Positions 4,839 to 21,032 of a stretch of 51,822 nucleotides of DNA are shown here, piece after piece. Source of the DNA: Chitinophagaceae bacterium (GTDB taxonomy: Bacteria > Bacteroidota > Bacteroidia > Chitinophagales > Chitinophagaceae); the NCBI GenBank assembly GCA_022841365.1, contig JALHRP010000021.1, forward strand, positions 3,674-55,495, read 5' to 3'. Positions within the stretch are counted from its first letter, which is position 1. Each line of letters opens with the position of its first letter. A program made the translations under genes and the position numbers. The notes beneath the pieces were generated by a model, which did not search any database, was not told the origin of the DNA, and saw nothing but the letters and a program-made list of their open reading frames with translations.

Positions 4839-4910
4839 AAAGAAAATATTTTCTGTTTCAGTGAGGCAAAATAATGGTATTTTGGGGTATTGGCAGCATT
4901 TTTAACGCTT

Positions 4911-5189
4911 ATGAAGGGATTTTTGTTTTTCAGTAAGGTCGGGTTCATGTTGAACATCGTTTTCTTTGTTTGTGTGATCTTTTGGCTGATGCCTCATATG
5001 GTTTTACCGCAGGCACTCACTTCACTGCTTATTATTGCAGGTTGGCCGTTGTCCCTGCTGGTGAATGCAGTGTTGTTTATCTGGTTTCTGTATTATTTGT
5101 TTGCAAAAAGAACCGACATTCAGCCGTTCCGCATGTTCCTGTTCAACAGTATCGTTTTTATTTTTCAACTTATTTTTTTCTTTTTATGA
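4911..5189 (+). CDS. Small hydrophobic membrane protein, unknown function
   Basis: A protein of 92 residues with about three hydrophobic helices (residues 6-30, 37-60 and near the C-terminus). ATG at 4911 is preferred over an upstream TTG at 4890. Its TGA stop overlaps the ATG of the next gene (ATGA at 5186-5189), so it is almost certainly co-translated with the queuosine-precursor transporter. I do not recognise a family. It starts 72 bases from the divergent YfhO-like gene, so 4839-4910 must hold both promoters. Confidence 0.6.
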   Translation: MKGFLFFSKVGFMLNIVFFVCVIFWLMPHMVLPQALTSLLIIAGWPLSLLVNAVLFIWFLYYLFAKRTDIQPFRMFLFNSIVFIFQLIFFFL

Positions 5190-5986
5190 TTAAACAAATC
5201 ATCAGCGATAAACCAACACGCTTGTTTATTATTCTTGGTGGATTTTTTATTGCCAATGCTTTAATTGCTGAGATCATTGGGGTTAAAATATTTTCATTGG
5301 AGAAAACACTGGGGTTTACGCCCATGGAATTAAATCTGTTTGGCAATCTGCTGTCTGTAAATCTTACTGCAGGGGTGTTGTTATGGCCGGTTGTTTTTAT
5401 TATGACCGACATCATCAATGAATATTATGGTATGAAAGGGGTTCGATTTTTATCTTATCTCACTGCAGGTCTTATTGCATTTGCATTCATCATTTTTTTA
5501 CTGGCGATGAAATTAACTCCTGCCGATTTTTTTATCAGCAGCAAGCAAGGGAGTGGTGTACCCGATATGGAAAAGGCATATAACAGTGTACTGGGTCAGG
5601 GTGGATTTATTATTATCGGTTCGTTAACTGCATTTATTCTTGGGCAGTTGATTGATGTGTTTGTGTTTCATAAAATCAAAAAAGTAACAGGAGAAAACCG
5701 CATCTGGCTGCGGGCAACCGGATCTACTTTAGTGTCTCAGTTTATTGACAGTTTTGTCGTGCTGTTTATTGCATTTTATATTGGTACAAGAGTAAACCAA
5801 CAGGCAAATGATTTTGTATGGCCTTTCAGTTTGTTTATTGCGGTTGGTATTGTGAATTACATTTATAAATTTATCGTTGCAATTCTGTTAACTCCGGTCA
5901 TTTATCTGGTGCATAACCTCATTGAAAAATTTCTCGGAAAAGAAAGAGCAGCAGAAATGAAAAAGGCTGCTATGGCCAATGAATAA
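5186..5986 (+). CDS. Queuosine precursor transporter, YhhQ/VUT family
   Basis: A 266-residue transporter of the YhhQ (DUF165/VUT) family, which takes up preQ0/preQ1 or related 7-deazapurines for queuosine in tRNA. About six membrane helices are visible. Family signatures include WPVVFIMTDIINEYYG near residue 68, where the acidic/Asn run is characteristic, and GSTLVSQFIDSFVVLFIAF near residue 180. The open frame extends upstream, but the ATG at 5186 gives the normal length and overlaps the stop of the preceding small membrane protein. The stop at 5984-5986 directly abuts the convergent NUDIX gene. Confidence 0.88.
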   Translation: MIKQIISDKPTRLFIILGGFFIANALIAEIIGVKIFSLEKTLGFTPMELNLFGNLLSVNLTAGVLLWPVVFIMTDIINEYYGMKGVRFLSYLTAGLIAFAFIIFLLAMKLTPADFFISSKQGSGVPDMEKAYNSVLGQGGFIIIGSLTAFILGQLIDVFVFHKIKKVTGENRIWLRATGSTLVSQFIDSFVVLFIAFYIGTRVNQQANDFVWPFSLFIAVGIVNYIYKFIVAILLTPVIYLVHNLIEKFLGKERAAEMKKAAMANE

Positions 5987-6439
5987 TTAAAAACGTTCCT
6001 TCAAAAGGTTCACTACAATTTTATCAATAGGTAAGCTAACGGTATCAGCAGTAAAGTCGCTCCATTCAATTAAACGAAATACTTCTGCTTCGCCTGTTGG
6101 ATCAGCTATTTGATGCGGTTCAAAATCAAATGCAGTTTGCTTAAACTCAACGGAAATAGGCTCCAGTGGTTTTACAAAATAATAGATGGAAATAATTTGG
6201 TGTGCCGGATTAAATGCACTCCTCTGATAAATATCGGTGGTATAAAGATGATCGCCGATTTCAACTTCCAGATTCATTTCTTCTTTCATCTCCCGCTTTA
6301 AACAATCTCTGGTGCCTTCGCCAAACTCTAAACCACCACCCGGAAACTTAGTGATGTATGCCCCACGAATAAACTCATCTGTAACAACTACCTGTCTGGC
6401 TTCTGTTAAAATAATGCCGTATACCCGTATATTAAACAT
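5987..6439 (-). CDS. NUDIX hydrolase
   Basis: A 150-residue enzyme that would hydrolyse a nucleoside diphosphate linked to another group. The NUDIX box is at about residues 36-58: GGLEFGE, seven residues, then REMKEEMNL. All the metal-binding glutamates of REUxEE are there, while the usual Gly just after EE-x is Asn. Both ends look complete for a minimal NUDIX protein. It is convergent with the YhhQ gene with no spacer. Substrate cannot be predicted. Confidence 0.88.
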   Translation of the reverse strand: MFNIRVYGIILTEARQVVVTDEFIRGAYITKFPGGGLEFGEGTRDCLKREMKEEMNLEVEIGDHLYTTDIYQRSAFNPAHQIISIYYFVKPLEPISVEFKQTAFDFEPHQIADPTGEAEVFRLIEWSDFTADTVSLPIDKIVVNLLKERF

Positions 6440-6482
6440 GCTCTGTTTTATATTGTTGTTTGATGTTGCTGAACTACGCAGC

Positions 6483-7421
6483 TTAAAATAATTTCTTCCG
6501 CATAAAATAAATGCCGATCAGCAACGATAAACCCAACGACAGCAGAATGGGAAAATAAAATGCAAAGCTGGAGTGAGCGCCCGGTATGGGCACATTCATT
6601 CCGTATATACTGGCTACCAATGTTGGCAACTGTAACATAATGGTAATAGAGGTAAGCCGTTTCATTACCTGGCTTTGGTTGTTGCTGATAACACTTGCAA
6701 ATGCATCCAGTGATGAGCTGAGGATATTGGTATAGGTGTTGGCCATTTCCAAGGCCTGACTTGTATCAACAATTAAATCCTGCAGTATTTCATCCTCATC
6801 TTCAGTAAGACTTAAAAAACGGGTGCGTTGCAGTTTCATTAACAGCAGTTCGTTGCTGCGCAGTGCGGTAACAAAGTACACCAGGCTTTTCTGTATACGC
6901 ATCAGATCAAGCAATTCCTCATTCCGGTTGGCATCGTATAATTTTTGTTCCAGCAAATTTCTTTTGTGATTGATTTCTTTTAAGAACTCCATAAACGCCT
7001 GTACAACCTTTTCAAAAATCTTGAGCACCATCAGATTTTTCTTATCTGGGTGCCTGTTTTGAAATGTGTTGAGGAATTTTTTAATGGCGCCGTTATCAAA
7101 CGAGTTAACCGTTACAATCTGGTTGTGAGTTAAAATAATACAGATCGGGATGGTGATATAAAATGCATCGCTGTCGTTAAACGAATTATTTTCCGTTGGA
7201 GTTTTAATCACAATCAGCTTCACATTGTCTTCCAGTTCAAAACGGGAGCGTTCATCAATATCCAGTGAGTCTGCAAGGAAATCAAGCGGTATATCAAGTG
7301 CTTCTGCAACTTCAGAAAATTCTTCCTGTTTTAACGGCGGAACAATATTCACCCATGCACCTTCTTCAGGTTTTTCAATAGCGAGTGTTTTACCGTCTAC
7401 ATTTTTAAAGAATTGCAGCAT
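6483..7421 (-). CDS. corA: CorA-family magnesium/divalent cation channel
   Basis: A 312-residue CorA-type channel for Mg2+ (or Co2+/Ni2+) in the inner membrane. A long cytoplasmic N-terminal domain with a helical funnel is followed by two C-terminal helices. The selectivity motif YGMNVPIPG lies near residue 275 at the end of the first helix, and the protein ends in a short basic tail (MRKKLF). The length fits bacterial CorA. The ATG is 26 bases from the DinB stop. A TACCTTTG element 8 bases upstream of the ATG suggests its own, nearly leaderless, transcript. Confidence 0.92.
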   Translation of the reverse strand: MLQFFKNVDGKTLAIEKPEEGAWVNIVPPLKQEEFSEVAEALDIPLDFLADSLDIDERSRFELEDNVKLIVIKTPTENNSFNDSDAFYITIPICIILTHNQIVTVNSFDNGAIKKFLNTFQNRHPDKKNLMVLKIFEKVVQAFMEFLKEINHKRNLLEQKLYDANRNEELLDLMRIQKSLVYFVTALRSNELLLMKLQRTRFLSLTEDEDEILQDLIVDTSQALEMANTYTNILSSSLDAFASVISNNQSQVMKRLTSITIMLQLPTLVASIYGMNVPIPGAHSSFAFYFPILLSLGLSLLIGIYFMRKKLF

Positions 7422-7428
7422 AGCGGCG

Positions 7429-7436
7429 CAAAGGTA
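7429..7436 (-). promoter_or_regulatory. Possible -7 promoter element of corA
   Basis: Read on the minus strand this is TACCTTTG, matching the Bacteroidota -7 consensus TAnnTTTG. It lies just upstream of the corA ATG, so the transcript would be almost leaderless. I see no clear TTG -33 box, so support is partial. Confidence 0.35.
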
Positions 7437-7447
7437 ATGAGCGGCTG

Positions 7448-8020
7448 TTAATCTGCGACTGAAAATTCAACGGCTTCGTTTTGCCTGATACGAATGGTCT
7501 TGTAATGGTGCGTGTTATGAAACAGGTTAAAGTACAGCCATTCTCTGATGGTAATCATTCCCAGCACGGGATGGGGCGATTGATACAGATCAATGTTTTC
7601 ATCTTCCCAGTAATAACGGATCTGATCAAGGTATTTTTGTGCAACCTGTTCAAAGCGGCTTACGAGTCTTTCTTTTGCACCCGGTTCCTGTTTCACAGCG
7701 GGGCTGAATCTTTTATCGGGTGAAATACCTTCTTCTACTTTTTTATAGTAAACATCAACCAGTTCTTCGTAGGAGAAAGATGAATGTGTTGGCTTGCCGA
7801 ATTTCCATTTGATATAAAATTTAGGGAACAGCAATGTGAGCCAGCTCTTGTGCAGTATTAAAGAAAGATGCTCCAGATTTTCTGCAACAGACCATTGTTC
7901 AGATTTGTAAAAAAACTGGTGTTCCTCCATTTTTCGGCACAGCTTCAGAATATCCTCAATGGTATTCTCCGCATGGTTGAGGATTTGGAATTTGTTTAAA
8001 TGATAGCGTTTGGCAATCAT
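7448..8020 (-). CDS. DinB-like four-helix protein
   Basis: About 190 residues with the DinB/YfiT-type pattern. An N-terminal helix with SEQWSVAENLEHL carries the first metal histidine of this superfamily. PHPVLGMITIREWLYFNLFHNTHH at the C-terminus carries the H-x3-H site. Members bind a metal and may act as thiol- or nucleophile-dependent transferases; the actual reaction is unknown here. The frame stays open upstream into low-complexity sequence (NPNPNPN) and the end of dapF. ATG at 8020 (MIAKRYHLNKFQ) gives the natural domain and is preferred. Confidence 0.75.
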   Translation of the reverse strand: MIAKRYHLNKFQILNHAENTIEDILKLCRKMEEHQFFYKSEQWSVAENLEHLSLILHKSWLTLLFPKFYIKWKFGKPTHSSFSYEELVDVYYKKVEEGISPDKRFSPAVKQEPGAKERLVSRFEQVAQKYLDQIRYYWEDENIDLYQSPHPVLGMITIREWLYFNLFHNTHHYKTIRIRQNEAVEFSVAD

Positions 8021-8063
8021 CGGGTGTAGGTTAGGGTTAGGATTTGGATTAAGCTTTCTTGTT

Positions 8064-8843
8064 TTATACGTTGATGGATCCTGTGTAGACAAACTTTGCC
8101 GGTCCGCAGAGCCAGATGTTTTCAAAATTTGTATTGGATCGTTTTTCAAATTTTACTTTTAAGTTTCCTCCGGATGTTTGAATAATTTTTTCCTGTGGTC
8201 CGTTTCCTTCATCACTTGCAGCTATTGCCGCAGCAGTTACTCCTGTTCCGCAGGATAAGGTTTCGTCTTCTACACCACGCTCATAAGTACGAATGAGTAA
8301 GTGTGTTGACAGCCTCTGAACAAAATTAACATTGATGCCAGTTTTTGAAAAGGGGGGGGAGTTGCGAATTGATTTTCCTTCGGAATATACATCAATTGCC
8401 TTCACATTATTTTCCCATTTAATATAATGCGGTGATCCTGTGTTTAAAATCACATGATCTCCATATTTTTCAATTGCATTTACATCTTTCATTTTCAGTT
8501 CTACCCAATCTTTTTCATTGATGGTGGCTTCGTGTAACCCGTCTGTAGCAAGGAATACAGCCGATTTGTCAATTACCTGCATGTGTTTTGCAAAAGCAAC
8601 CAGACAACGCCCTCCATTTCCACACATACTCCCTTCGGCACCATCAGCATTGTAATAAATCATCTCAAAATCATAACCTTCTTTTTGTTGCAAGAGCATT
8701 AGCCCATCTGCTCCGATGCCAAATCTTCGGTTGCATAAAAAGGCTATTTCTACGCTGGATAATTGCGTATAATTACCAAGACGATTATCCAATATGATGA
8801 AATCGTTACCGGTTCCCTGATATTTGTAAAAGTGAATTGTCAT
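8064..8843 (-). CDS. dapF: Diaminopimelate epimerase
   Basis: A 259-residue enzyme that interconverts LL- and meso-diaminopimelate for lysine and peptidoglycan synthesis. Both catalytic cysteines are visible: Cys74 in MCGNGGRC and Cys198 in SCGTGV. The N-terminus (FYKYQGTGNDFIILDN) is canonical. The ATG overlaps the stop of the upstream nucleoside phosphorylase gene (ATGA at 8840-8843), so the two are translationally coupled although their pathways differ. Length is normal. Confidence 0.96.
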   Translation of the reverse strand: MTIHFYKYQGTGNDFIILDNRLGNYTQLSSVEIAFLCNRRFGIGADGLMLLQQKEGYDFEMIYYNADGAEGSMCGNGGRCLVAFAKHMQVIDKSAVFLATDGLHEATINEKDWVELKMKDVNAIEKYGDHVILNTGSPHYIKWENNVKAIDVYSEGKSIRNSPPFSKTGINVNFVQRLSTHLLIRTYERGVEDETLSCGTGVTAAAIAASDEGNGPQEKIIQTSGGNLKVKFEKRSNTNFENIWLCGPAKFVYTGSINV

Positions 8844-9715
8844 AACGATGAAATTATTTCAAGCGATTGAACAATCAGTTTCTCAACAGCTGCATTTCCA
8901 TCTTTGCTGAATTCTTTTTTTACTCTGTTGGCAACAATGGCACTGATGGAGAGGCATTGATGCCCCAGTATCTTTCCCAGGCCATAAATAGCCGCTGTTT
9001 CCATTTCAAAATTAGTGATCCTGTGCTGACCAAACTGAAACGCTGTTAAACGATCTATAAGTGCAGGATTGGAAAGTCCCATTCGTAACACTCTTCCCTG
9101 CGGACCATAAAAACCAGGACATGTTACCGTAATTCCATGCTGATAACCATGAACAAAATGTTTGAGCAGTTGTGACCCTGCGCCTGTAACATAAGGGTAT
9201 GATAAACTATCCTGCACCTGTGTATGGGTTACAAATGCATGGAGCAATTGCTTTTCCTCTTCGTTGTATTCAGTCCGGTAAAAATGCAGTAGGTTATCAA
9301 TTCCCAATCCATGTGTAGATACCACAAATCCATCCACCGGAATATCGGCCTGCAATGCTCCTGATGTTCCTAAACGTATAATTTGAAGTGTGGTTAAATT
9401 TGGTTTGATGACTCTTGTTTCAAAATCAATATTCACCAGTGCATCGAGCTCGTTTAAAACTATATCTATATTGTCGGGGCCAATGCCTGTTGATACAACT
9501 GATATCCGTTTCTTGCCAACATATCCTGTGTGCGTTACAAATTCACGGTGCTGTTGCTTATGTTCAACAGAATCGAAATGTTTGGATACTTCTTTTACAC
9601 GATCAGGATCACCAACCGTTATAATGGTATGCGCCAGTTCTTCGGGACGTACATTTAAATGATAAACAGCCCCTCTTTGATTAATGATGAGTTCACTTTC
9701 TGCAATTCTTTGCAT
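8840..9715 (-). CDS. Nucleoside phosphorylase (uridine phosphorylase-like, PNP/UDP family)
   Basis: A 291-residue PNP_UDP_1-family enzyme that would cleave a nucleoside with phosphate to give base and ribose-1-phosphate in the cytoplasm. Visible family features are the phosphate site IRLGTSGALQ around residue 114, TVGDPDRV near the N-terminus, and NFEMETAAIYGLG near residue 235, the ribose/base-binding motif. It resembles uridine phosphorylases, but the substrate base is not certain. It is the first gene of a two-gene unit with dapF. Confidence 0.85.
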   Translation of the reverse strand: MQRIAESELIINQRGAVYHLNVRPEELAHTIITVGDPDRVKEVSKHFDSVEHKQQHREFVTHTGYVGKKRISVVSTGIGPDNIDIVLNELDALVNIDFETRVIKPNLTTLQIIRLGTSGALQADIPVDGFVVSTHGLGIDNLLHFYRTEYNEEEKQLLHAFVTHTQVQDSLSYPYVTGAGSQLLKHFVHGYQHGITVTCPGFYGPQGRVLRMGLSNPALIDRLTAFQFGQHRITNFEMETAAIYGLGKILGHQCLSISAIVANRVKKEFSKDGNAAVEKLIVQSLEIISSL

Positions 9716-9929: not shown

Positions 9930-10331
9930 ATGCGTTACTCAAATTATATCGGTATCATCGCTGCATTACTGCTTGTGTTTGCAGCAACCTTTCCATGGAT
10001 TTATATTCCGTCTGTACAAGCAACTGTTTCCGGCTTTGGATCTGAAACCGTGATGAAGTTTGGTAAACCCGTTTTAATGAACCTGATTATGCTGGTGCTG
10101 AATGTGCTGTTCTTTTTAATTCCAAAGCTTTGGGCCAAGCGTTTTAATCCATTTATTGCATCAATAGGATTTGCCTGGGCTCTGCGTAATCTTTTACTGC
10201 TTTCTACCTGCAGAAACGGTGAGTGTCCCGAACGGACCATCTGGCTGTACGTTTATTTTTTTGCAGCCTGTGTGGTATTGATTATGACCTTGCTGCCTGA
10301 AATCAAAACTAAATCAAACGACCCTGCTTAA
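9930..10331 (+). CDS. Small four-helix membrane protein, unknown function
   Basis: A 133-residue protein with about four hydrophobic helices, at residues about 6-25, 50-68, 78-95 and 105-122. Two cysteines (STCRNGECPE, near residue 97) lie in one loop. I recognise no family. The ATG is 11 bases after the T-tract of the tRNA terminator, so it may live on read-through or an unseen promoter. Its TAA overlaps the stop of the convergent ABC-type gene. Confidence 0.6.
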   Translation: MRYSNYIGIIAALLLVFAATFPWIYIPSVQATVSGFGSETVMKFGKPVLMNLIMLVLNVLFFLIPKLWAKRFNPFIASIGFAWALRNLLLLSTCRNGECPERTIWLYVYFFAACVVLIMTLLPEIKTKSNDPA

Positions 10332-11227
10332 GCTACTGAAGAGAATACCGGTTCGGGGTCCACTTCTTTTTCATCATCTGTTTGCAGCTCTACTCTGTGT
10401 AAAATATCTTTGAGCGATGCTATGCGCTGTATCATATACGGCACGGTATCTAACCCACTCACAAACTTGAGGATGTATGTGTATATGCCAATCAGGTCTC
10501 CTGCCTGTAAGGTTTTGCCCGACATCTTAGATGAGATAATAAGTGCTGCAGAAATGATCACAATCACCAGTAATTCCATTACACCAAAATTCCATGCTTC
10601 CTGATCGCTGATGCGTATCTGCCACTTGCGGAGATTATTATAATGCTGATTGATGCGGATTGTATTTTTTGTAGCCAGTACATTTACCTGTTCTTCCAGT
10701 TCATCGTTTCTTAATTTATTCAGCCGGCGCATCCGCTTGCCGTAAATATAACCGGTAACTGTTACAGGAATCAGCATGGTTAAACAAAGCAGCACCACCT
10801 GTGCATCATAGAAACAAAGTAAAATGAGCGAGCCGGCAATGTTATAAACGGCTTCAATGATATAGTTTAAATCAAACTCAAGAAAATCAATAAACTCTCT
10901 TGATAAATTGGAGTGAGCGCTGAGTTTAGACAGATCTTTGTTTTTATTACGGCTCATTAAGCGAACCACCAGTGAAGTATAAATGTCTGAATAGGTTCTT
11001 GAATCGTACATATGCCGGATGGTTCCTGTAACAACCCACAGCAGATGTGCGGCAACCAGCAAGATCAATCCGTTGTAAGAATTTTTTAATAAATCATTCA
11101 CAGCCTCTCCTAAAAAATAAGGCCGCAACAATAATCCCAGCATTTCTACAGCAAATAAACTGTAGGTGAGTAACAGTTTATAGCGGTGTTGTTTTACAAT
11201 CGTTTGGATCACCCATTTTCCAGGCAT
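10328..11227 (-). CDS. ABC exporter six-helix membrane domain without ATPase domain
   Basis: A 299-residue protein that matches only the transmembrane half of an ABC exporter: about six helices and long cytoplasmic extensions with the family's basic loop GKRMRRLNKLRNDELEEQVN. It stops where a nucleotide-binding domain would start. No Walker A, signature or Walker B sequence exists in this frame or nearby. NCBI and Pfam know such stand-alone proteins (ABC transporter six-transmembrane domain group). An AAGGAG Shine-Dalgarno sequence lies 6 bases before the ATG, rare in this window. It follows the ATP-grasp/SET cluster on the same strand after 140 bases and could export or anchor its product; that link is inference. 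Confidence 0.75.
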   Translation of the reverse strand: MPGKWVIQTIVKQHRYKLLLTYSLFAVEMLGLLLRPYFLGEAVNDLLKNSYNGLILLVAAHLLWVVTGTIRHMYDSRTYSDIYTSLVVRLMSRNKNKDLSKLSAHSNLSREFIDFLEFDLNYIIEAVYNIAGSLILLCFYDAQVVLLCLTMLIPVTVTGYIYGKRMRRLNKLRNDELEEQVNVLATKNTIRINQHYNNLRKWQIRISDQEAWNFGVMELLVIVIISAALIISSKMSGKTLQAGDLIGIYTYILKFVSGLDTVPYMIQRIASLKDILHRVELQTDDEKEVDPEPVFSSVA

Positions 11228-11367
11228 AACTATCTCCTTGCTTTATTAAATCTTCAAAATAGACTGTGCAGAATCGCCGGAGTTTAGTGGATGGTATGAT
11301 TTCTTTTTCCGGCAGAATGGATTAGTAAGGGTAGTGCAAAGATAAGCAGAGGTGCGGGCAGAACAGT

Positions 11368-12801
11368 TTAACTCTTTGTCAGTTGCTGTTCACGGCTGCT
11401 GACAGAATTTCCCTTTTGTCCGGAAACTATTTTGCGGCAGTTGGGTGCACCGCACTGGCAATCAAAGGTTTCAGCTGAATCATCTAATAATTGAGCATAA
11501 TCCATAGTGAGTTCTTCTCCTGGCTGAATAGGCTTTATAGCGATCAGATTCAGGCCCATGTAGGCAGTATTAGGACTGCAGGAATGGTTCTGCGGTGCCC
11601 ATTCGGAGGGGTTGTTATCCCATAAAACATATACTTCAGTGCTGAGCGGTACGGCATAATGTTTAAACAGCAGCTTCTCTTCGGGCAGCCAGTTGTTATC
11701 TACAAAACGTTTTGTAACGATGCGTTGGGGCCGTTCTTCTCCTTTAAAAATAACTTCAGCTTCTGCAATGGACTGCGTGGCATATATACCAAAGCCGGCA
11801 ATTGAATTCCCCTTCATGATGTATTTCTTTTGCCTGCGTTTATGACGGGCAATACCTTCATCAATGATATGCTGCAGAAAACCTGCCTGACCAATGCCAT
11901 CGGCTTTAATAATGTAATCGGCACTGCCTTCATACCCATCAGTATAAAAAACAGAACAGGTAAAATTTACTTCTAAGAAAAATAATTTACCTGCTTCATT
12001 CATTCTAAAATCCATCCGTGCATAACCAACGCCGCCAAAACTGCGGAAGATGCGTTGAGCCGCTTCTGTTAATTGTTGTTTGATGGCAGGATCAGTAACA
12101 GGAATATTGCTTTCGGGATGCAGTTCAGATGTTTTGAGTGCATAGGTTTTAAATGTTCTTCCTTCAGGAAAAATAAATTCAATGGGTTGAAAAACTTTGC
12201 ACTTCTTTTCATCTTTTGCATTGGCAGCAACCAAAACTGTAAACTCTCTGCCTGCAATATATTCTTCTACCAACAATTGCGGATAGGAAGAAAGTACTGT
12301 CGTTGCTTTCTGTTTTAACTCATCAAGGTTATTGCAAACCGAATGTTCATCAATACCCAAACTGTCGCCGGCCTTTGCAGGTTTTACAAATAAAGGGTAA
12401 GTCAAATGCTTTACTTCCTGTTCGAGTTGATCAACGTTTTCAATCAAAGCATAATTAGCAGTTGCCACTCCTTCGGTATAGGCCACATACTTCATCAATT
12501 CTTTTGGAGGATCGTATAACAAGGTATTAGGTCCTGTAAACGGCAGGTTGAGTAATTCCAATGTATAAATCACATCAATAGAAGGAACTTCCCATTCCAG
12601 ATAACCTTCGCATAAGTTTACAAAACAATCATATCCTTTTTTACTCAGCTCAAGCAGTTGTTTGTAGGTGGTGAGTTTGTTGAGAAACACATGATCGAAC
12701 TGAATATGCGGCAACAAATGCGATACGTTGCGGGGCGGATCGTAATATTGATAATCAACAGCAGAAGTGGAGTAGTCGGGTTGCAATACACAAATCTTCA
12801 T
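11368..12801 (-). CDS. ATP-grasp ligase (D-Ala-D-Ala ligase-like) fused to a SET-domain lysine methyltransferase
   Basis: A 477-residue fusion. Residues 1 to about 320 are an ATP-grasp ligase of the D-Ala-D-Ala ligase type, with nucleotide lysine K140 (FVKPA), acidic pair E179/E180 (VEEYIAG) and metal ligands D264 (RMDFRM), E277 and N279 (LEVNFTC). Residues about 326-460 are a SET domain with NHSCSPN at 405-411 and the catalytic tyrosine region GEELTMDY at 428-435. A post-SET zinc site is formed by C408, C448, C450 and C455 (CQCGAPNC). All key residues of both enzymes are kept, so both activities are plausible: ATP-dependent peptide or amide bond formation, and AdoMet-dependent methylation of a lysine-type amine. 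It is 12 bases behind the related ATP-grasp gene. Substrate unknown. Confidence 0.85.
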   Translation of the reverse strand: MKICVLQPDYSTSAVDYQYYDPPRNVSHLLPHIQFDHVFLNKLTTYKQLLELSKKGYDCFVNLCEGYLEWEVPSIDVIYTLELLNLPFTGPNTLLYDPPKELMKYVAYTEGVATANYALIENVDQLEQEVKHLTYPLFVKPAKAGDSLGIDEHSVCNNLDELKQKATTVLSSYPQLLVEEYIAGREFTVLVAANAKDEKKCKVFQPIEFIFPEGRTFKTYALKTSELHPESNIPVTDPAIKQQLTEAAQRIFRSFGGVGYARMDFRMNEAGKLFFLEVNFTCSVFYTDGYEGSADYIIKADGIGQAGFLQHIIDEGIARHKRRQKKYIMKGNSIAGFGIYATQSIAEAEVIFKGEERPQRIVTKRFVDNNWLPEEKLLFKHYAVPLSTEVYVLWDNNPSEWAPQNHSCSPNTAYMGLNLIAIKPIQPGEELTMDYAQLLDDSAETFDCQCGAPNCRKIVSGQKGNSVSSREQQLTKS

Positions 12802-12813
12802 ATCATCTTGCTG

Positions 12814-13950
12814 TTAACGCACAGCCACTGCTTTTTTTGTTTTTTGTTTATGACGTTGCATCGCATCCTGCAGAATATGAAGAATTAAACCGGAATAAGA
12901 TTGATTACTTAATCGTACAATGGCACCAATCGACGTATAGTTTTCATCTTCACTTAAACCGCATTGTGCATTTACTTCCAGCACATACATGCGGCCGGTT
13001 TTTTTATCCATACGAATGTCAACCCGTCCGTAACCTGTTCCGCCCACTGCACAATATGCTTTCCAGCTGAGATCCATGATCTTTTTTTGCAGATTGATGG
13101 GAGGGAGGTGGTATTGATAAAAATCTTCTTCTTCGCCAAGGGATTGTTCCTTTTCATAGGTTTCCCATAAACGGTCGAAGGATAAAAACTTTTCTGTATC
13201 GGGTAAATCTTTATGAAAAATGCGTTCAACAGGAACATATACTTTCCTGCTGCGTGGTGAGTGATGCGATCCTGAAATGAAAACAGTGTATTCAGGCCCG
13301 TTAATAAATTCTTCTGCCACCAATCCGCCAAAAGAGAAATCCCAGCCACGGTAACCATCAAATAATTCTTTCACCAGTGTTTTTAATTCTTCATCGTTAT
13401 GCACTACGTTCTTTACGCCCAGTCCCATGCTGCCACCGCTCACTGCAGGTTTAATAATCAATGGTGTACCAACACGGTCGCAGATATTGCTGAGTTTTTG
13501 TTTTGCATGATGAATGGGTACCCATGCTGCATGTGGAATACCGGCATTATCAAACAACTCCTTCATAACGATCTTTGAAGTAGTGTTATCATAAAAGGCA
13601 GCATCAGCACCCGTGAAGATGAGTTTCTTTTCTTTTAAATAATGAATCACCGATACACCCGGTGTTCCATTCACTTCATCGCCATCGCATAAATTCAGTA
13701 CCAAGGGTGTTTGAAAAGAAGTGGTGGCGGCAATATCATCAATGATCTCTTTAAAATTGTTTTGCGTTACAGGTTGCCATTTCCAATTGAGTTGTAATTC
13801 TGCAAACACCTTTGTGTATTCATCAATGCTTTGTGTAAAATCGTAGTAGTAATCAAGATTTGCATCATTGGTTTGCAGATGCGGTACCAATACCCATATA
13901 AACAAAGGCTGCTCAGTGGAAGGGAGAGAAAGTAACGGGTTTAAAAGCAT
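12814..13950 (-). CDS. D-Ala-D-Ala ligase-like ATP-grasp enzyme
   Basis: A 378-residue ATP-grasp protein related to the N-terminal part of the following fusion. Visible residues are K167 (LIIKPAVSGGSMGLGV, the lysine plus glycine-rich loop), E213/E214 (VAEEFINGPEYT), D311 (GYGRVDIRMD), E325 and N327 (LEVNAQC). It has no SET domain. Both ligases carry a cysteine two residues after the metal-binding Asn (EVN-x2-C) and end in a similar helix (ILHILQDAMQRHKQK / LQHIIDEGIARHKRR). It is not the cell-wall Ddl: its N-terminus and C-terminus differ from Ddl, so another amino acid or peptide is the likely substrate. It lies 17 bases after the SET gene. Confidence 0.85.
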   Translation of the reverse strand: MLLNPLLSLPSTEQPLFIWVLVPHLQTNDANLDYYYDFTQSIDEYTKVFAELQLNWKWQPVTQNNFKEIIDDIAATTSFQTPLVLNLCDGDEVNGTPGVSVIHYLKEKKLIFTGADAAFYDNTTSKIVMKELFDNAGIPHAAWVPIHHAKQKLSNICDRVGTPLIIKPAVSGGSMGLGVKNVVHNDEELKTLVKELFDGYRGWDFSFGGLVAEEFINGPEYTVFISGSHHSPRSRKVYVPVERIFHKDLPDTEKFLSFDRLWETYEKEQSLGEEEDFYQYHLPPINLQKKIMDLSWKAYCAVGGTGYGRVDIRMDKKTGRMYVLEVNAQCGLSEDENYTSIGAIVRLSNQSYSGLILHILQDAMQRHKQKTKKAVAVR

Positions 13951-13967
13951 ATTGTAAATGTAAAAGA

Positions 13968-14462
13968 TTAATGCTTTAATTGATCAATTTTAGATTGAAT
14001 AAAATCAGTCAACCTGTACTGACGCAATGTATCGTTACTGAGTTCTTTTGCTCCTTTGATGATACCAATGCAATTGGCTTCACCACACAAACAATGAAAG
14101 GGCTCTGCCATAAACCATTCGGTTGATGGATAGAAAAAGGTAAACTCATCGCCTGCTGCTATTGCTTTTAATGCTGTTAATTCCATGGTTGTGGTATTAA
14201 AGAATGCATTGGGGTTGCAGCTATGGTTGATGTATTGTAAAAATTCCGGGCTGAGAATGATATGTTTGTTTTCTGCAATCTGCACGGTGTATTTAGATGG
14301 ATGATCATGTATTTCTCCGGATCCAAAACTGCAGATGACCTCATTGGGCTGATACGATTTGGTGGAGCAAAGAAGCTGATGATCGGAGCCGGTGAGTTGG
14401 TGGATTTCAGCAAAACCATAGTGGCCGGTAACCACGGTTGCTGCAAGGGTTGAAATGCTCAT
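13968..14462 (-). CDS. Stand-alone SET-domain methyltransferase
   Basis: A 164-residue minimal SET protein, first gene of the cluster. It keeps NHSCNPN at 79-85, the GDEFTFFYPSTEW segment at 104-116 with catalytic-type Tyr111, and a post-SET zinc site from C82, C124, C126 and C131 (CLCGEANC). SET enzymes methylate lysine side-chain amines with S-adenosylmethionine. Bacterial substrates are known for few of them. The gene is 17 bases ahead of the ATP-grasp gene, and a second SET domain is fused to the next ligase. This suggests two methylation steps or two substrates in one pathway. Confidence 0.85.
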   Translation of the reverse strand: MSISTLAATVVTGHYGFAEIHQLTGSDHQLLCSTKSYQPNEVICSFGSGEIHDHPSKYTVQIAENKHIILSPEFLQYINHSCNPNAFFNTTTMELTALKAIAAGDEFTFFYPSTEWFMAEPFHCLCGEANCIGIIKGAKELSNDTLRQYRLTDFIQSKIDQLKH

Positions 14463-14560: not shown

Positions 14561-14567
14561 CATTAAA

Positions 14568-14595
14568 AAACCCGTTTCAAAACTGAAACGGGTTT
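14568..14595 (-). terminator. Rho-independent terminator of trxA
   Basis: AAACCCGTTTC (14568-14578) and GAAACGGGTTT (14585-14595) form an 11-bp stem with a 6-base loop. On the minus strand it is followed by a run of six T (14565-14570, partly in the stem), 22 bases after the trxA stop. It isolates trxA from the SET/ATP-grasp cluster. Confidence 0.9.
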
Positions 14596-14617
14596 CTATA
14601 ATCGTTGTAATAAAAGC

Positions 14618-16865: not shown

Positions 16866-18131
16866 TTAGTGGTTATGCCCCGCCATCGGGTCTGCCCCTT
16901 TTTTAAATACGTATTCGCTGTGGAGGAGATAAGCACCCTGCACTACCACCACATCACCGGCCGTTAAACCTGATTTGATTTCAATCTGATCATTACTTTC
17001 CAACCCCACCTGCACCATTTTACTTTTAAATGATTGTGCTCCTGTTCTGATCCACACGGTTGCGCTTTTGCCATCTCTGATCACAGCATCAATGGGTAAA
17101 GTGAGCGTTGAGCGTTGCGTACTTTTCAATACTACATAAGCAGGCATCCCTGGTTTTAATTGATTACCGCTGTTGGGAATGGATACACGGATGAGATTGA
17201 TTCTTGTATCGGGATTGATTTCAGGGTTTACAAATTCAATACGTCCTTTCAATTCTTTGCCTTCCATATCGGGCAGTTGAACGGTGGCTGTTCCATTGAG
17301 ATCAATGGTTGATAGCTGTAATGTATATACCTGTGCTTCGGCCCAGAGTGTAGAGAGATCGGCCAGCTTTACAATGGTGCCGCCCTCCATTACATAATCC
17401 CCTTCACGAATATCCATGGAGGTAATATAGCCTGCTGCTGTACTGTAAAATGTTGTGAGCGGAGTTGGCTTTTTTGTTTTGGCCAGTTCATTGATCTGCG
17501 CTTCACTCAATCCCCACAGCAATAATTTGTTTTTAGCGCTTTGCAGTAACTGTTCATAGTCAATGACGGTTTCTGCAGCAAATGTTTTCTTCTGCTCCAG
17601 AGCAAGCAGGTATTCCTGTTTGGCATTGTTGAGATCTTCACTGTAGATGGCATATAAAGCTGCACCTTTGCTTACATAATCTCCCATGTTTTTGAAATAT
17701 AATTTTTCTATCCTGCCCATCACTCTTGAACTCACAGAAGAAGTTTTCATTTGATCGAAGTTGAGACTGGCAGTTAAGACCAAACGATCGCCGATGGTTC
17801 CTGTGCGGATGGTATCGGTTTGAATATTGCCCAACTGTATCTGCTGATCACTGAGCTGCAGTTCATCTTTCTTTTCACCGGTTCTTTTTTTAACAGCTGT
17901 AAGATCCATTTTGCAAATGGGACATTTACCCGGCTTTTGTTCAACTACCTGTGGATCCATGGAGCAGGTGTAGTAGACATCACTCTCTGTTTGTTTCGTT
18001 GATTTATTCTTGCAAGCAGAAAGTATGAACAGGCAACAGGCAATAAGCAATAGGCAAACAGATGATCTACATAGTAAATTGCCAATTGTCAATTGCCCAT
18101 TGCCTGTTGAAATGTTTAGTTGTTTCATCAT
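16866..18131 (-). CDS. RND efflux periplasmic adaptor (CusB-like) with one heavy-metal-binding domain
   Basis: A 421-residue membrane fusion protein linking an RND pump to TolC. After a lipoprotein signal (Cys40, LSAC) comes an HMBD at about 54-78 (YYTCSMDP ... CPICKMDL), then the barrel-sandwich and beta-barrel domains (RVMGRIEKLYFKNMGDYVSKG). It ends HNH with a His near the C-terminus. The first 40 codons contain a palindromic heptad repeat (18028-18109) that encodes the unusually long N-region and the hydrophobic core LLLIACCL. It starts two bases after the stop of the first adaptor. Likely metal: Cu or Ag. Confidence 0.88.
   Translation of the reverse strand: MMKQLNISTGNGQLTIGNLLCRSSVCLLLIACCLFILSACKNKSTKQTESDVYYTCSMDPQVVEQKPGKCPICKMDLTAVKKRTGEKKDELQLSDQQIQLGNIQTDTIRTGTIGDRLVLTASLNFDQMKTSSVSSRVMGRIEKLYFKNMGDYVSKGAALYAIYSEDLNNAKQEYLLALEQKKTFAAETVIDYEQLLQSAKNKLLLWGLSEAQINELAKTKKPTPLTTFYSTAAGYITSMDIREGDYVMEGGTIVKLADLSTLWAEAQVYTLQLSTIDLNGTATVQLPDMEGKELKGRIEFVNPEINPDTRINLIRVSIPNSGNQLKPGMPAYVVLKSTQRSTLTLPIDAVIRDGKSATVWIRTGAQSFKSKMVQVGLESNDQIEIKSGLTAGDVVVVQGAYLLHSEYVFKKGADPMAGHNH
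18028..18109. repeat. Palindromic heptad repeat inside the adaptor's signal-peptide region
   Basis: On the plus strand the left arm is CAACAGG-CAATAAG-CAATAGG-CAA (18034-18057) and the right arm is made of TTGCC-AATTGTC-AATTGCCC units (18078-18109). The two arms are roughly inverted copies. The left arm matches a second copy at 25740-25763 in 23 of 24 bases. It lies wholly inside coding sequence. Confidence 0.7.
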
Positions 18132-18133
18132 TA

Positions 18134-19513
18134 TTACTGTTTTACCTTAATAAAGCTTTCACTGTCCATTAAATATTGTGCAATCACCGCAACAGAATCT
18201 GTTGCAGTTACTCCGCTGAGGATTTGAATATGTCCCTGATGTAAAATGCCTGTGTTAATTTTCCGTGCTTTAAAACCGCCATCTGTTTTTTGAAAGACCA
18301 CTTTATCTAATCCAAGTGACAATACCGCTTCTTTCGGTAACCAATAGGCTTCTTTTGAATTGCCGTAAATAACAGCTCTTACCTGACTGCCGATGGGTAT
18401 TCTTAAACTGCTGTTATTAAAATAAACTCTTGCTGTTAAGGTTTTACTTTCCTGCCTGTAAAACGGTTCAATAAAATCAATGCTTGCCCTGAAATCTTTA
18501 TCTGGCATGGTTTCCGGCACTACTCTTACGGTGTTCCCTTTTTTAACCAGTCCCTGATTATCACCAAAAATATTCAGCAATGCCCATGCACGTGTTGGAT
18601 TATAGAGTATAAAAACCGATTGACCTTTGTTGATGTACATGCCTTCTTTCAAAGAAAGTTCTTCGGTTAGCTGAGCAATGTCTTTCATTTTGTTAGATGA
18701 AGGATTCATTGAAGCGCCTGTTGATTCATGAATATGACCACTGTAATTACTGTATACTGCAATGGTGAAAGCTGCTTGTTTTGTTTGAATAACCTGTTGC
18801 AATTGTTGATTGCTCATACCCAGCAGTAACAGTTTTTGTTTAGCCGATTCAATGAAGCTTGTATTTTCGGGATCGTTCTTTAACAGGAATAATAAATTCT
18901 GTTGTGCAGTTAATATCTCCGGACTGTAAATATCCATGATACGCTGTCCTTTGCTGATCTTTTGATAACGGTAACGGACATAGAGTTTTTCAATACGTCC
19001 GCTTACTCTTGCAGCAATCGTTCCCACTTCTCTTGTATCATATGCAATGGTACCTAACGCTTCAATTTCTATTTGTTCTTCTTTCTGTTCAATGGTTGTA
19101 ACAGGAATGGATGAAATCACAAACTCATTGGTTGGTTTCAGTAATGCATCCAATCCAATTTCTGCAGATGCGCTGCCACCGGTTTCTTTTTTCACCAAGT
19201 CCATTCCGCAAATGGGGCAGGAGCCGGGTTTGTCTTTAATTACATCCGGATGCATGGGGCAGGTATATTCAACTGTTGCATTTTCATGATCATGATTTTG
19301 CTGTGTGGCAGATTGTTGCATCTTTACCAGATCCATTCCACACTTGGGACAAGTGCCAGGCTTGTCGCTAAACACCGAATCCTGCGGCATAGGGCAGGTA
19401 TACATGTCTTTTGCAACATCCTGCTTGTGGTTTGCATGCGGATCATTACTATTACAAGAAGTAATAAACAGAATAATAACAGCGGCGATGAAATAAATTC
19501 TTTTCATATTCAT
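18134..19513 (-). CDS. RND efflux periplasmic adaptor (CusB-like) with two heavy-metal-binding domains
   Basis: A 459-residue lipoprotein (Cys20, ITSC) and the first of two tandem adaptors. Two HMBDs are at about 38-63 (MYTCPMPQD ... CPKCGMDLV) and 83-107 (YTCPMHPDV ... CPICGMDLV), separated by a His-containing linker. The membrane-fusion core begins near residue 120 and contains [18 protein letters not shown]. The sequence differs enough from the next adaptor that they are not a recent duplication. A second ATG at 19507 has a better AGAGGA spacing and may be the real start. Role: pass metal to the pump and bridge to TolC. Confidence 0.88.
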
Positions 19514-19518
19514 TCCTC

Positions 19519-21021
19519 TTAACTAAGTTGATATTGTAACATCATTCCATCATCTTCATGTTCAAGATTGTGGCAATGAAAAACAAATTTGCCTGTGTTA
19601 TTTTCAAAAGGCACTACTACTCGTACTGTTTCACCCGGCATAACCAGCACCGTATCTTTCCATCCGTTTTCAGCTGCTGTTAATTGATTTCTTCCGCCAC
19701 TGCGTTGCAGTACCTGAAAGAAAACTCCATGCAAGTGCATGGGATGCGGTTCATCGCCTTTGCTGTTATCAAACACCCATACTTCATTGGTATTGGCAGC
19801 AACATACTCATCAATGCGGCCACCATCGTACAATTTGCCATTAATCCGATGCCGCATTTTCATGCCATCATTCATCGGATAACCATGATGTTCCATTGCA
19901 TTTGAAATTTCAAATGTTCTTGTTTTAACTGCTGACGAAGCTGTAAGCGTTGTGATGGATGAAAGCGTTGCAGGTATTGTAAATGTATCCGTAGCCGGTA
20001 CAGTTACTTTAAACTTCATGATTTTAAATTCCTGTTTGCCCTGCGCATCTCCTCCATTGGAGAAGCCTTTACTCGTTAAATACACATCGGTGCCAGGTGA
20101 AATGCCTGCAAAGTTTACCAGCACATCCAGTCGTTCTCCCGGAGCAATCAATATTTCTTTTACAGTAACAGGATTTTTTAACAAGCCTCCATCGTTTCCG
20201 ATAATGACCATATCTGTATTGTTACTGAATGCAAGATTATAAACCCTTGCATTAGATCCATTGAGTATACGCAGACGGTAAAAACGTGTAGCCACTTCTG
20301 TATAAGGAGAATCAATTCCATTCACCAGTACTGTTTCGCCCATAAAGCCTGCCATCACTTCTTCTGCACCCGGCGTGTAAGGAATACCACCCGGTGTAAT
20401 TCGTTTATCCTGTATCACTAACGGTAACTCATAACTGCCCGAAGGAAAATTGAGAGCAGCTTCTTCAGCATCATTGATCAGGAACATGCCGGCCAATCCC
20501 TGAAAAACCTGTTTAGCCGTTTTGCCATGCGGATGCGGATGATACCAGCTTAAACCTGCCCGTTGATTGATGGTAAACTGGTAGCGGAATGTTCCGCCTG
20601 CATTTGCCAGTTGATCGGGATGACCATCCATGAGAGCCGGAATTTTTAATCCATGCCAGTGCACATTGGTATGTTCAGTTAAATTATTCTGTAATAAAAT
20701 ATTTACGGCCTCTCCTTTATTTACTCTGAAAGTGGGGCCGAGTAAATTGTTTTGCTGATAACCAAGCACAGGGATTGAAGAACCGTTTACTGTGGCAGAT
20801 GTAACCTGTGCAGTTAATGTATGATTGGCTCCGGCCTGTGTTGGAAACGAAAGCAATTTGCTGAAATTTCCTTCATTCACCATAACCGGCTTGGTCATTA
20901 AACCCATGTGATGCGGATTTTTACAGCTGCTCAGGCTTGAGAGAAAACCTGTAAATGCACTGCCGGTTAAAATTGTTCCTGCACTAAGGCCGGTCATTTT
21001 AATAAACTCATTTCGTTTCAT
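19519..21021 (-). CDS. Multicopper oxidase (CueO-like)
   Basis: A 500-residue periplasmic multicopper oxidase, which would oxidise Cu(I) to less toxic Cu(II) with O2. All four copper-binding blocks are visible: HWHG (121-124), HPHPHG (161-166), HPMHLHG near residue 430, and [12 protein letters not shown] (482-493), which gives T1 ligands Cys483, His488 and axial Met493. The N-terminus has a signal with a KR pair and a possible lipid-attachment Cys (SSC, residue 33). A TTG three codons upstream is in frame, but ATG at 21021 is preferred. It is 11 bases after the TolC stop. Confidence 0.93.
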
Positions 21022-21032
21022 GTTTTTCAATT

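Follow-up and report, generated by a model that had tools for sequence, protein, structure and literature searches.

The 51,822-nucleotide stretch of Chitinophagaceae DNA analysed here (contig JALHRP010000021.1), referred to as the window, carries on its minus strand an operon of four genes, encoding a stand-alone SET-domain methyltransferase, an ATP-grasp ligase, a fusion of these two enzyme types and an ABC transporter membrane protein. The operon genes constitute a real, patchy, co-inherited module. We read the operon, with about an even chance of being right, as a small nonribosomal pathway, in which a methylated amino-acid amide or a short peptide would be built and exported. The original prediction of an undescribed ligase/methyltransferase module with a transport gene apparently stands, as no description of it was found in the literature searched. 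Its premise that a SET domain implies lysine is weak: among solved structures, the stand-alone SET is closest to BurB, which acts on free methionine, and the fused SET is about equally close to BurB and to histone lysine methyltransferases. In place of 'lysine', the premise should read 'amino acid, possibly methionine, or lysine'.

The open reading frame (ORF) listing of the window gives the order SET, ATP-grasp, ATP-grasp-SET fusion and ABC membrane domain, with 17 bases between the SET and ligase genes, 12 between the ligase and fusion genes and 140 between the fusion and ABC genes, in agreement with the spacing, strand and domains originally described. The first gene (13968-14462, minus strand) encodes the BurB-like stand-alone SET methyltransferase of 164 aa, recognized from its ORF, the Pfam SET domain (35.4 bits, cut-off 22.4), PDB sequence matches and an AlphaFold2 (AF2) model compared by Foldseek. 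The second (12814-13950, minus strand) encodes a stand-alone ligase of 378 aa, with a Dala_Dala_lig_C domain (69.1 bits, cut-off 24), assigned by Pfam, NCBIfam and residue comparison to the fold of the D-Ala-D-Ala ligase (Ddl) family, although not to Ddl itself; fold prediction and fold search of a ligase were performed on the fusion only. The fusion (11368-12801, minus strand; 477 aa) matches both Dala_Dala_lig_C (87.4 bits) and SET (43.2 bits) and was characterized by Pfam, an alignment of 19 orthologues, an AF2 model and Foldseek. Its ATP-grasp part spans about residues 1-325 (11827-12801, minus strand; Pfam match 113-279), according to the split used for building HMMs, and its SET part about residues 326-477 (11368-11826, minus strand; Pfam match 336-435), with the motifs WAPQNHSC, LTxDY and CxCxxxxC. 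The fourth gene (10328-11227, minus strand) encodes a 299 aa ABC_membrane_3 transmembrane domain protein (PF13748, 143.3 bits), described from Pfam, co-occurrence and a Walker A check.

Co-occurrence was evaluated in 99 related genomes, own genome included, by calling the ligase and the ABC gene present at E <= 1e-20 and the stand-alone SET at E <= 1e-15. The fusion is full-length in 25 genomes, and a contig-end fragment is found in one more (G004); the stand-alone ligase occurs in exactly the same 26. The stand-alone SET is found in all 26 genomes of this triad and in three others, two with weak matches and one (G098) with two strong copies. The ABC gene is present in 18 of the 26 triad genomes and in none of the remaining 73 (Fisher test, 6e-14 by genome and 2e-6 by genus, values to be taken as guides, since the sampled genomes are related). 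One gene of the set lies apart in two genomes: the SET gene elsewhere in the genome in G034, and the ABC gene on another contig in G057. The dN/dS ratio is 0.04-0.15 in 11 out of 16 comparisons, a rough measure, as dS is saturated in the other five and high in several of the 11. The co-conservation anticipated by the original prediction is therefore found, and co-occurrence and dN/dS together indicate that the arrangement is not due to chance.

Gene order was followed in 80 named loci, kept out of 354 fusion matches. Where at least 2.5 kb is available upstream (64 loci), the ligase is adjacent to the fusion in 61 and the order SET-ligase-fusion is found in 56; where at least 1.3 kb is available downstream (74 loci), the ABC gene comes next in 51. 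Median gaps are 6 bases between SET and ligase and 17 between ligase and fusion. One locus (L051) reads ligase-fusion-ABC-SET, placing the ABC gene within the unit. In another, what looks like an inserted restriction pair, a BglII-type restriction endonuclease gene with a DNA methylase gene (L175:10881-12481), separates the stand-alone ligase from the fusion.

The closest named species among the fusion matches is Lacibacter (87% and 84% identity). With a threshold of E <= 1e-40, 64 of 396 genomes sampled from the order carry the fusion, G121 with its ligase half only, as do 17 of 395 sampled from the phylum. Twelve of these 17 are outside the order, and nine of the 12 belong to one genus, which we take to be green sulfur bacteria because the FMO protein is encoded in all four of its tested genomes and in none of four others. 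Within the green sulfur bacterial family, the fusion is a patchy accessory trait, carried by 6 of the 61 genomes drawn. SET is followed by the fusion in 7/7 green sulfur bacterial loci read, and all six that extend far enough read SET, fusion, complete ABC exporter and short SET; Pfam and a PDB sequence match identify the exporter of L163, to which those of the other five loci are 85-94% identical. No stand-alone ligase is present in the stretches read. The short third SET (about 118 aa) closing this operon (L163:12756-13112, with matching places in L162, L164, L179, L189 and L191) is a weak match to the stand-alone SET profile.

Both ligases find their best family in Ddl, by Pfam and, among the 25 of 54 families listed for each, by NCBIfam. 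The AF2 model of the fusion (pLDDT 84.7) agrees, the best 50 of its 919 Foldseek hits being all Ddl or Van-type ligases. The ATP/Mg-site residues (Lys, two Glu, Arg, Asp, Glu, Asn) are kept in 19/19 fusions and 19/19 stand-alone ligases. Residues equivalent to H63 and Y216 of the E. coli DdlB active site are found in 0/38 aligned ligases, in an alignment that is gapped and less certain near H63 than near Y216. The Glu corresponding to E15 of DdlB falls in a poorly aligned region and is found in none of the 19 fusions and in 2/19 stand-alone ligases, with Asp in the next column in 18/19. At the position of the Ddl histidine motif, the two ligase families have in common the motif N[L/I]C[E/D]G. 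Another difference concerns the loop that follows E-x-N and that in Ddl contributes to the second substrate site.

The claim that catalytic and zinc residues are kept in all the enzymes thus holds for the ATP site of the ligases (38/38) and for the Cys and Tyr of the SET domains; it fails for the H63- and Y216-type residues and perhaps, in an uncertain alignment, for the E15-type one. Scores point the same way: against NCBIfam TIGR01205 (cut-off 245.65 bits) the fusion reaches 97.1 bits and the stand-alone ligase 74.2, while the Ddl of the same genome, located on another contig and serving as positive control, passes with 263.8 and 330.2 bits (cut-offs 245.65 and 310). Plain D-Ala-D-Ala ligase was rejected on the basis of these scores, of the residues missing in 38/38 sequences and of the presence of a separate Ddl in the genome. 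The ligases belong to the Ddl family fold yet are not Ddl, so that the original prediction, which plain Ddl enzymes would have refuted, is not refuted on this point.

A search of the fusion against plasmids returned nine records, none covering 80% of it; the eight listed match 42-57% of the fusion at 26.9-29.4% identity, in the ligase part only. One plasmid locus (L193, Thioflavicoccus mobilis, 3485-8966) seems to hold a distinct diamino-acid ligase pathway: there, a Ddl-like ATP-grasp gene comes after a diaminobutyrate aminotransferase, sbnA and an ornithine-cyclodeaminase-type gene, and a KamA-type gene adjoins it on the other strand.

Across 19 fusions and 18 stand-alone proteins, the catalytic-type Tyr and the SET Cys positions (NHSC and CxCxxxxC) never vary. 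NHxC, the Tyr and the post-SET Cys are thus present in the SET proteins, but HSC, Tyr and Cys are found in BurB as well and hence do not discriminate. Closeness to other SET proteins was judged by scores and fold search only. In the PDB, BurB is the best match of the stand-alone SET, both by phmmer (1.4e-14, next 5.7e-8) and by profile (6.1e-20, next 1e-8). The AF2 model (pLDDT 92.8) has BurB structures in Foldseek ranks 1-3 (2.9e-10, TM 0.69-0.71, 29-32% identity), to be compared with 1.1e-6 and TM 0.53 for SETD2. By sequence, a green sulfur bacterial homologue of the stand-alone SET likewise has BurB as its closest solved relative.

According to the available parts of the reports, BurB methylates free methionine on sulfur (PMC12542666; PMC7496086), holding it through main-chain contacts, and its product, S-methylmethionine, is a precursor of the solute dimethylsulfoniopropionate (DMSP) (PMC12542666). 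SET domains are best known for acting on protein lysines, and a review of bacterial members mentions Chlorobium SET genes (PMC3980110, available parts). Public records follow that usage, 8 of 10 rows for plasmid-borne SET relatives being labelled protein-lysine methyltransferases. By its similarity to BurB in sequence and predicted structure, the stand-alone SET is nonetheless somewhat more probably a small-molecule enzyme than a protein-modifying one.

Ten plasmid-borne SET relatives were found, and the neighbours of four were inspected. One lies in a polyketide synthase locus, where its neighbours encode a dioxygenase, an aminotransferase and an aldehyde dehydrogenase. Another (L198:5809-7547, on a Sphingomonas paeninsulae plasmid) overlaps a diaminopimelate-decarboxylase-like gene inside a signalling gene cluster, and the two could be a methylate-then-decarboxylate pair. 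Away from the operon, the own genome (L060:16154-18331, contig C22) and two relatives (L061, L062) contain another small SET gene, encoding about 135 aa and accompanied by one or two conserved genes for proteins of 240-263 aa.

From these elements we infer free amino-acid substrates, an order of steps, an amide product and an outward direction of transport, on top of the observed gene content, order and conservation, the families, the folds predicted for the stand-alone SET and the fusion, the loss of Ddl-specific residues and the position of BurB as nearest solved relative. The BurB-like SET would methylate the side chain of a free amino acid, at the methionine sulfur or at a side-chain amine, by using S-adenosylmethionine (SAM). 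The two Ddl-fold enzymes would convert carboxylates into acyl phosphates and from these make one or two amide bonds, yielding a short peptide or an amino-acid amide, while the fused SET would add another methyl group to the substrate or the product of its ligase. The ABC membrane protein, represented in green sulfur bacteria by a complete ABC exporter, would carry the product through the inner membrane.

The product is probably small, because no other biosynthetic gene is shared and no shared small ORF was seen in the gaps between the fusion and ABC genes. An ORF of at least 12 codons, on either strand, is present in 39 of the 56 gaps; inspection by eye of two listed ORFs per gap, this being the only place searched, revealed no precursor-like small ORF common to them beyond near-identical genomes. 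A bolder version, in which the fusion is the first ligase-SET assembly enzyme and the products, common to Chitinophagales and green sulfur bacteria, belong to an undescribed class, nonribosomal di- or tripeptides that are exported and bear a sulfonium or quaternary-ammonium side chain, is possible but doubtful. If it were true, one branch of SET domains would act on free amino acids in secondary metabolism, rather than on proteins.

Several observations weigh against a nonribosomal pathway with export. As for the module itself, the ABC gene is missing from 8 of the 26 triad genomes, and G098 carries its two stand-alone SETs without the triad. Among 20 further loci, no SET gene adjoins the ligase and fusion in four (L168, L169, L170, L173), and neither ligase nor SET accompanies the fusion in three distant ones (L165, L166, L167); in L166 and L167 the neighbours include no recognizable partner, and in L160 only the ligase-like half is found. 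No further biosynthetic gene is common to the operons. As for the methyltransferases, two residues contacting SAM in BurB, Arg133 and His138, are aligned with Glu120 and Leu125 in the window SET, so that identity of function with BurB is not implied; a third, His93, is kept as His80, in a comparison made with BurB only. The fused SET, searched against the PDB as a 16-sequence profile, is divided about equally between BurB, matched over the C-terminal half (2.2e-12), and KMT2A, matched over almost all of the domain (2.1e-11). Two of the inspected plasmid relatives have no directly adjacent amino-acid enzyme, although in one an aminotransferase is found about 2 kb away on the other strand.

Transport adds to these doubts. 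An ABC exporter consists of a transmembrane domain and an ATPase; the green sulfur bacterial counterpart has both, while the window protein is a membrane domain only, with neither an ATPase family in Pfam nor a Walker A motif. Alignment of the ABC_membrane_3 protein to the green sulfur bacterial exporter by hhalign gave a probability of 0.45%, on a shallow alignment, and homology between the two was dropped as unsupported. The export considered possible in the original prediction gains support from the complete exporter of the green sulfur bacterial version.

The nearly full-length alignment of the fused SET to KMT2A/2D and the common action of SET domains on protein lysines (PMC3980110, available parts) give room to a pathway of protein modification, in which one specific protein would receive methyl groups on its lysines from the SETs and amino acids from the ATP-grasp enzymes, much as in RimK or tubulin-tyrosine-ligase systems. 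In the distant G623, moreover, the fusion lies 441 bases upstream of genes for an N-formylglutamate amidohydrolase, a MATCAP-type carboxypeptidase and a glutathione-synthetase-type ATP-grasp enzyme. We consider this explanation unlikely: no protein target was recognized within the operon, the Ddl family to which the ligases belong joins amino acids, the presence of a transporter is left unexplained, and MATCAP is absent from 23 of the 24 genomes tested, including 11/11 triad-bearing members of the order. The ligase/peptidase set downstream of the fusion in G623 (L165:5041-10792), all on the same strand, could add and remove amino acids. As a general partner, this MATCAP/formylglutamate-amidohydrolase cassette was rejected, since it is beside the fusion in G623 and MATCAP is absent from the 23 other genomes.

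The missing ATPase would be accounted for if the product stayed inside the cell, as a zwitterionic methylated amino acid or dipeptide (sulfonium or betaine) used as compatible solute or as sulfur or methyl store, the ABC protein not being an exporter; that BurB makes a precursor of the solute DMSP (PMC12542666, available parts) goes in the same direction. The complete exporter carried by all six of the longer green sulfur bacterial loci argues otherwise, as does a scan of the four neighbouring proteins, not extended to the rest of the genome, in which no Bur-type decarboxylase, aminotransferase or dehydrogenase was found; an intracellular solute is thus rather improbable. Still less probable is a methylated dipeptide or depsipeptide destined for peptidoglycan or another surface polymer, like the products of Van ligases. 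The Ddl fold and the diaminopimelate epimerase gene located 1.5 kb from the ABC gene (dapF, 8064-8843) would fit such a role; yet, in the loci compared, the dapF neighbour is kept in the same genus only, two Ddl active-site residues are missing in 38/38 ligases, an ordinary Ddl is present in the genome and the operon contains no mur-type gene. A graspetide-type ribosomal pathway whose precursor gene lies elsewhere is scarcely credible: ATP-grasp, methyltransferase and ABC transporter are a graspetide-like set (PMC8939145, available parts), but the ATP-grasp domains score best as Ddl and not as RimK-type (among the 25 of 54 NCBIfam families listed), no shared small ORF was seen in the fusion-ABC gap, and the term SET domain is absent from that graspetide survey. 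An anti-phage defence system was discarded, the four proteins giving 0 PADLOC matches at E <= 0.01.

The borders of the operon were also considered. Between the SET gene and the upstream gene, which reads as a thioredoxin from its translation, an intrinsic-terminator-like hairpin followed by a T-run is found at 14565-14597 (minus strand). Its folding energy is -19.4 kcal/mol (z -5.6), a value equalled in 0/200 shuffles, and it is recognizable in the Lacibacter-type alignment, more weakly in locus L068. A consensus scan did not list it, but that scan did no better on real than on shuffled sequence (promoters and terminators, 12 vs 15.5 and 6 vs 4.8). The hairpin is likely to be the 5' border of the operon and, because it follows the preceding thioredoxin-like gene, the SET gene probably opens the unit. 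Within the fusion-ABC gap, a TAnnTTTG-like element (11337-11344, minus strand) occurs in all seven aligned Lacibacter-type gaps and is a candidate for a separate promoter of the ABC gene.

At the other end, the ABC gene and a convergent ORF (9930-10331, plus strand) share four bases at their stop codons (10328-10331). The flanks of the operon vary from genus to genus. In the window, HlyD-type efflux parts with heavy-metal-binding motifs and a multicopper-oxidase-like protein, recognized from ORF translations only, are encoded at 16866-21030; relatives of the efflux proteins adjoin the operon in some same-genus loci and are absent beside others. DapF, a phosphorylase and the metal-efflux proteins were rejected as operon partners, because they are neighbours in same-genus loci only and are replaced in other genera.

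The enzyme classes are known ones, and it is their combination and their fusion that apparently have not been described: no ATP-grasp-SET fusion or operon was found in the literature searched, as represented by the best-ranked matches and with most subscription journals outside coverage. In term checks, SET domains are not mentioned in two surveys of ATP-grasp systems (PMC8939145; PMC4431377), nor ATP-grasp, ligase or operon in the main text of the bacterial SET review (PMC3980110). Graspetide clusters likewise bring together ATP-grasp, methyltransferase and ABC transporter, but their methyltransferases, in the available parts of the survey, are O-methyltransferases, UbiE-like or C-methyltransferases, in place of SET (PMC8939145); the ATP-grasp family matches are different, and no precursor was seen in the operon. 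We know of no SET methyltransferase in pathways of the phosphonoalamide type. Phosphonoalamides are likened here by their general description only, as small natural-product pathways that use ATP-grasp ligases (PMC11867202, available parts). Ddl and Van ligases have in common with the operon ligases the ATP-grasp family and fold and the ATP-site residues; the operon ligases differ in being fused to or paired with SET and in the loop after E-x-N.

Among SET proteins, BurB (PDB 9L4T, 9L4V; DMSP/malleicyprol biosynthesis) is, like the stand-alone SET, a small bacterial protein, and its pathway is a small-molecule one. The two share the HSC motif, the Tyr, Thr-x-Gln and the Cys positions, and differ in FFYPSTEW (window) versus MDYASTED (BurB), besides the two SAM contacts that are not kept. 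Unlike the operon, the bur pathway, as described in the available parts of the reports, has no ligase partner (PMC12542666; PMC7496086), and BurI/D/E-type genes are not among the four operon neighbours scanned. KMT2A/2D and SETD2 share with the operon SETs the fold, NHSC, the catalytic-type Tyr and the post-SET Cys; the stand-alone SET scores clearly nearer to BurB than to these histone lysine methyltransferases. The residue two before the Tyr, a switch position occupied by Phe in many lysine methyltransferases, is Met or Leu in the fused SET, Met in BurB and Phe in the stand-alone SET, and does not decide. SET enzymes are usually read as protein-lysine methyltransferases; here SET is paired with, and fused to, amino-acid ligases, in what looks like an unexplored biosynthetic module of environmental Bacteroidota and green sulfur bacteria, and the question of what bacterial SET proteins methylate becomes directly testable with four small proteins.

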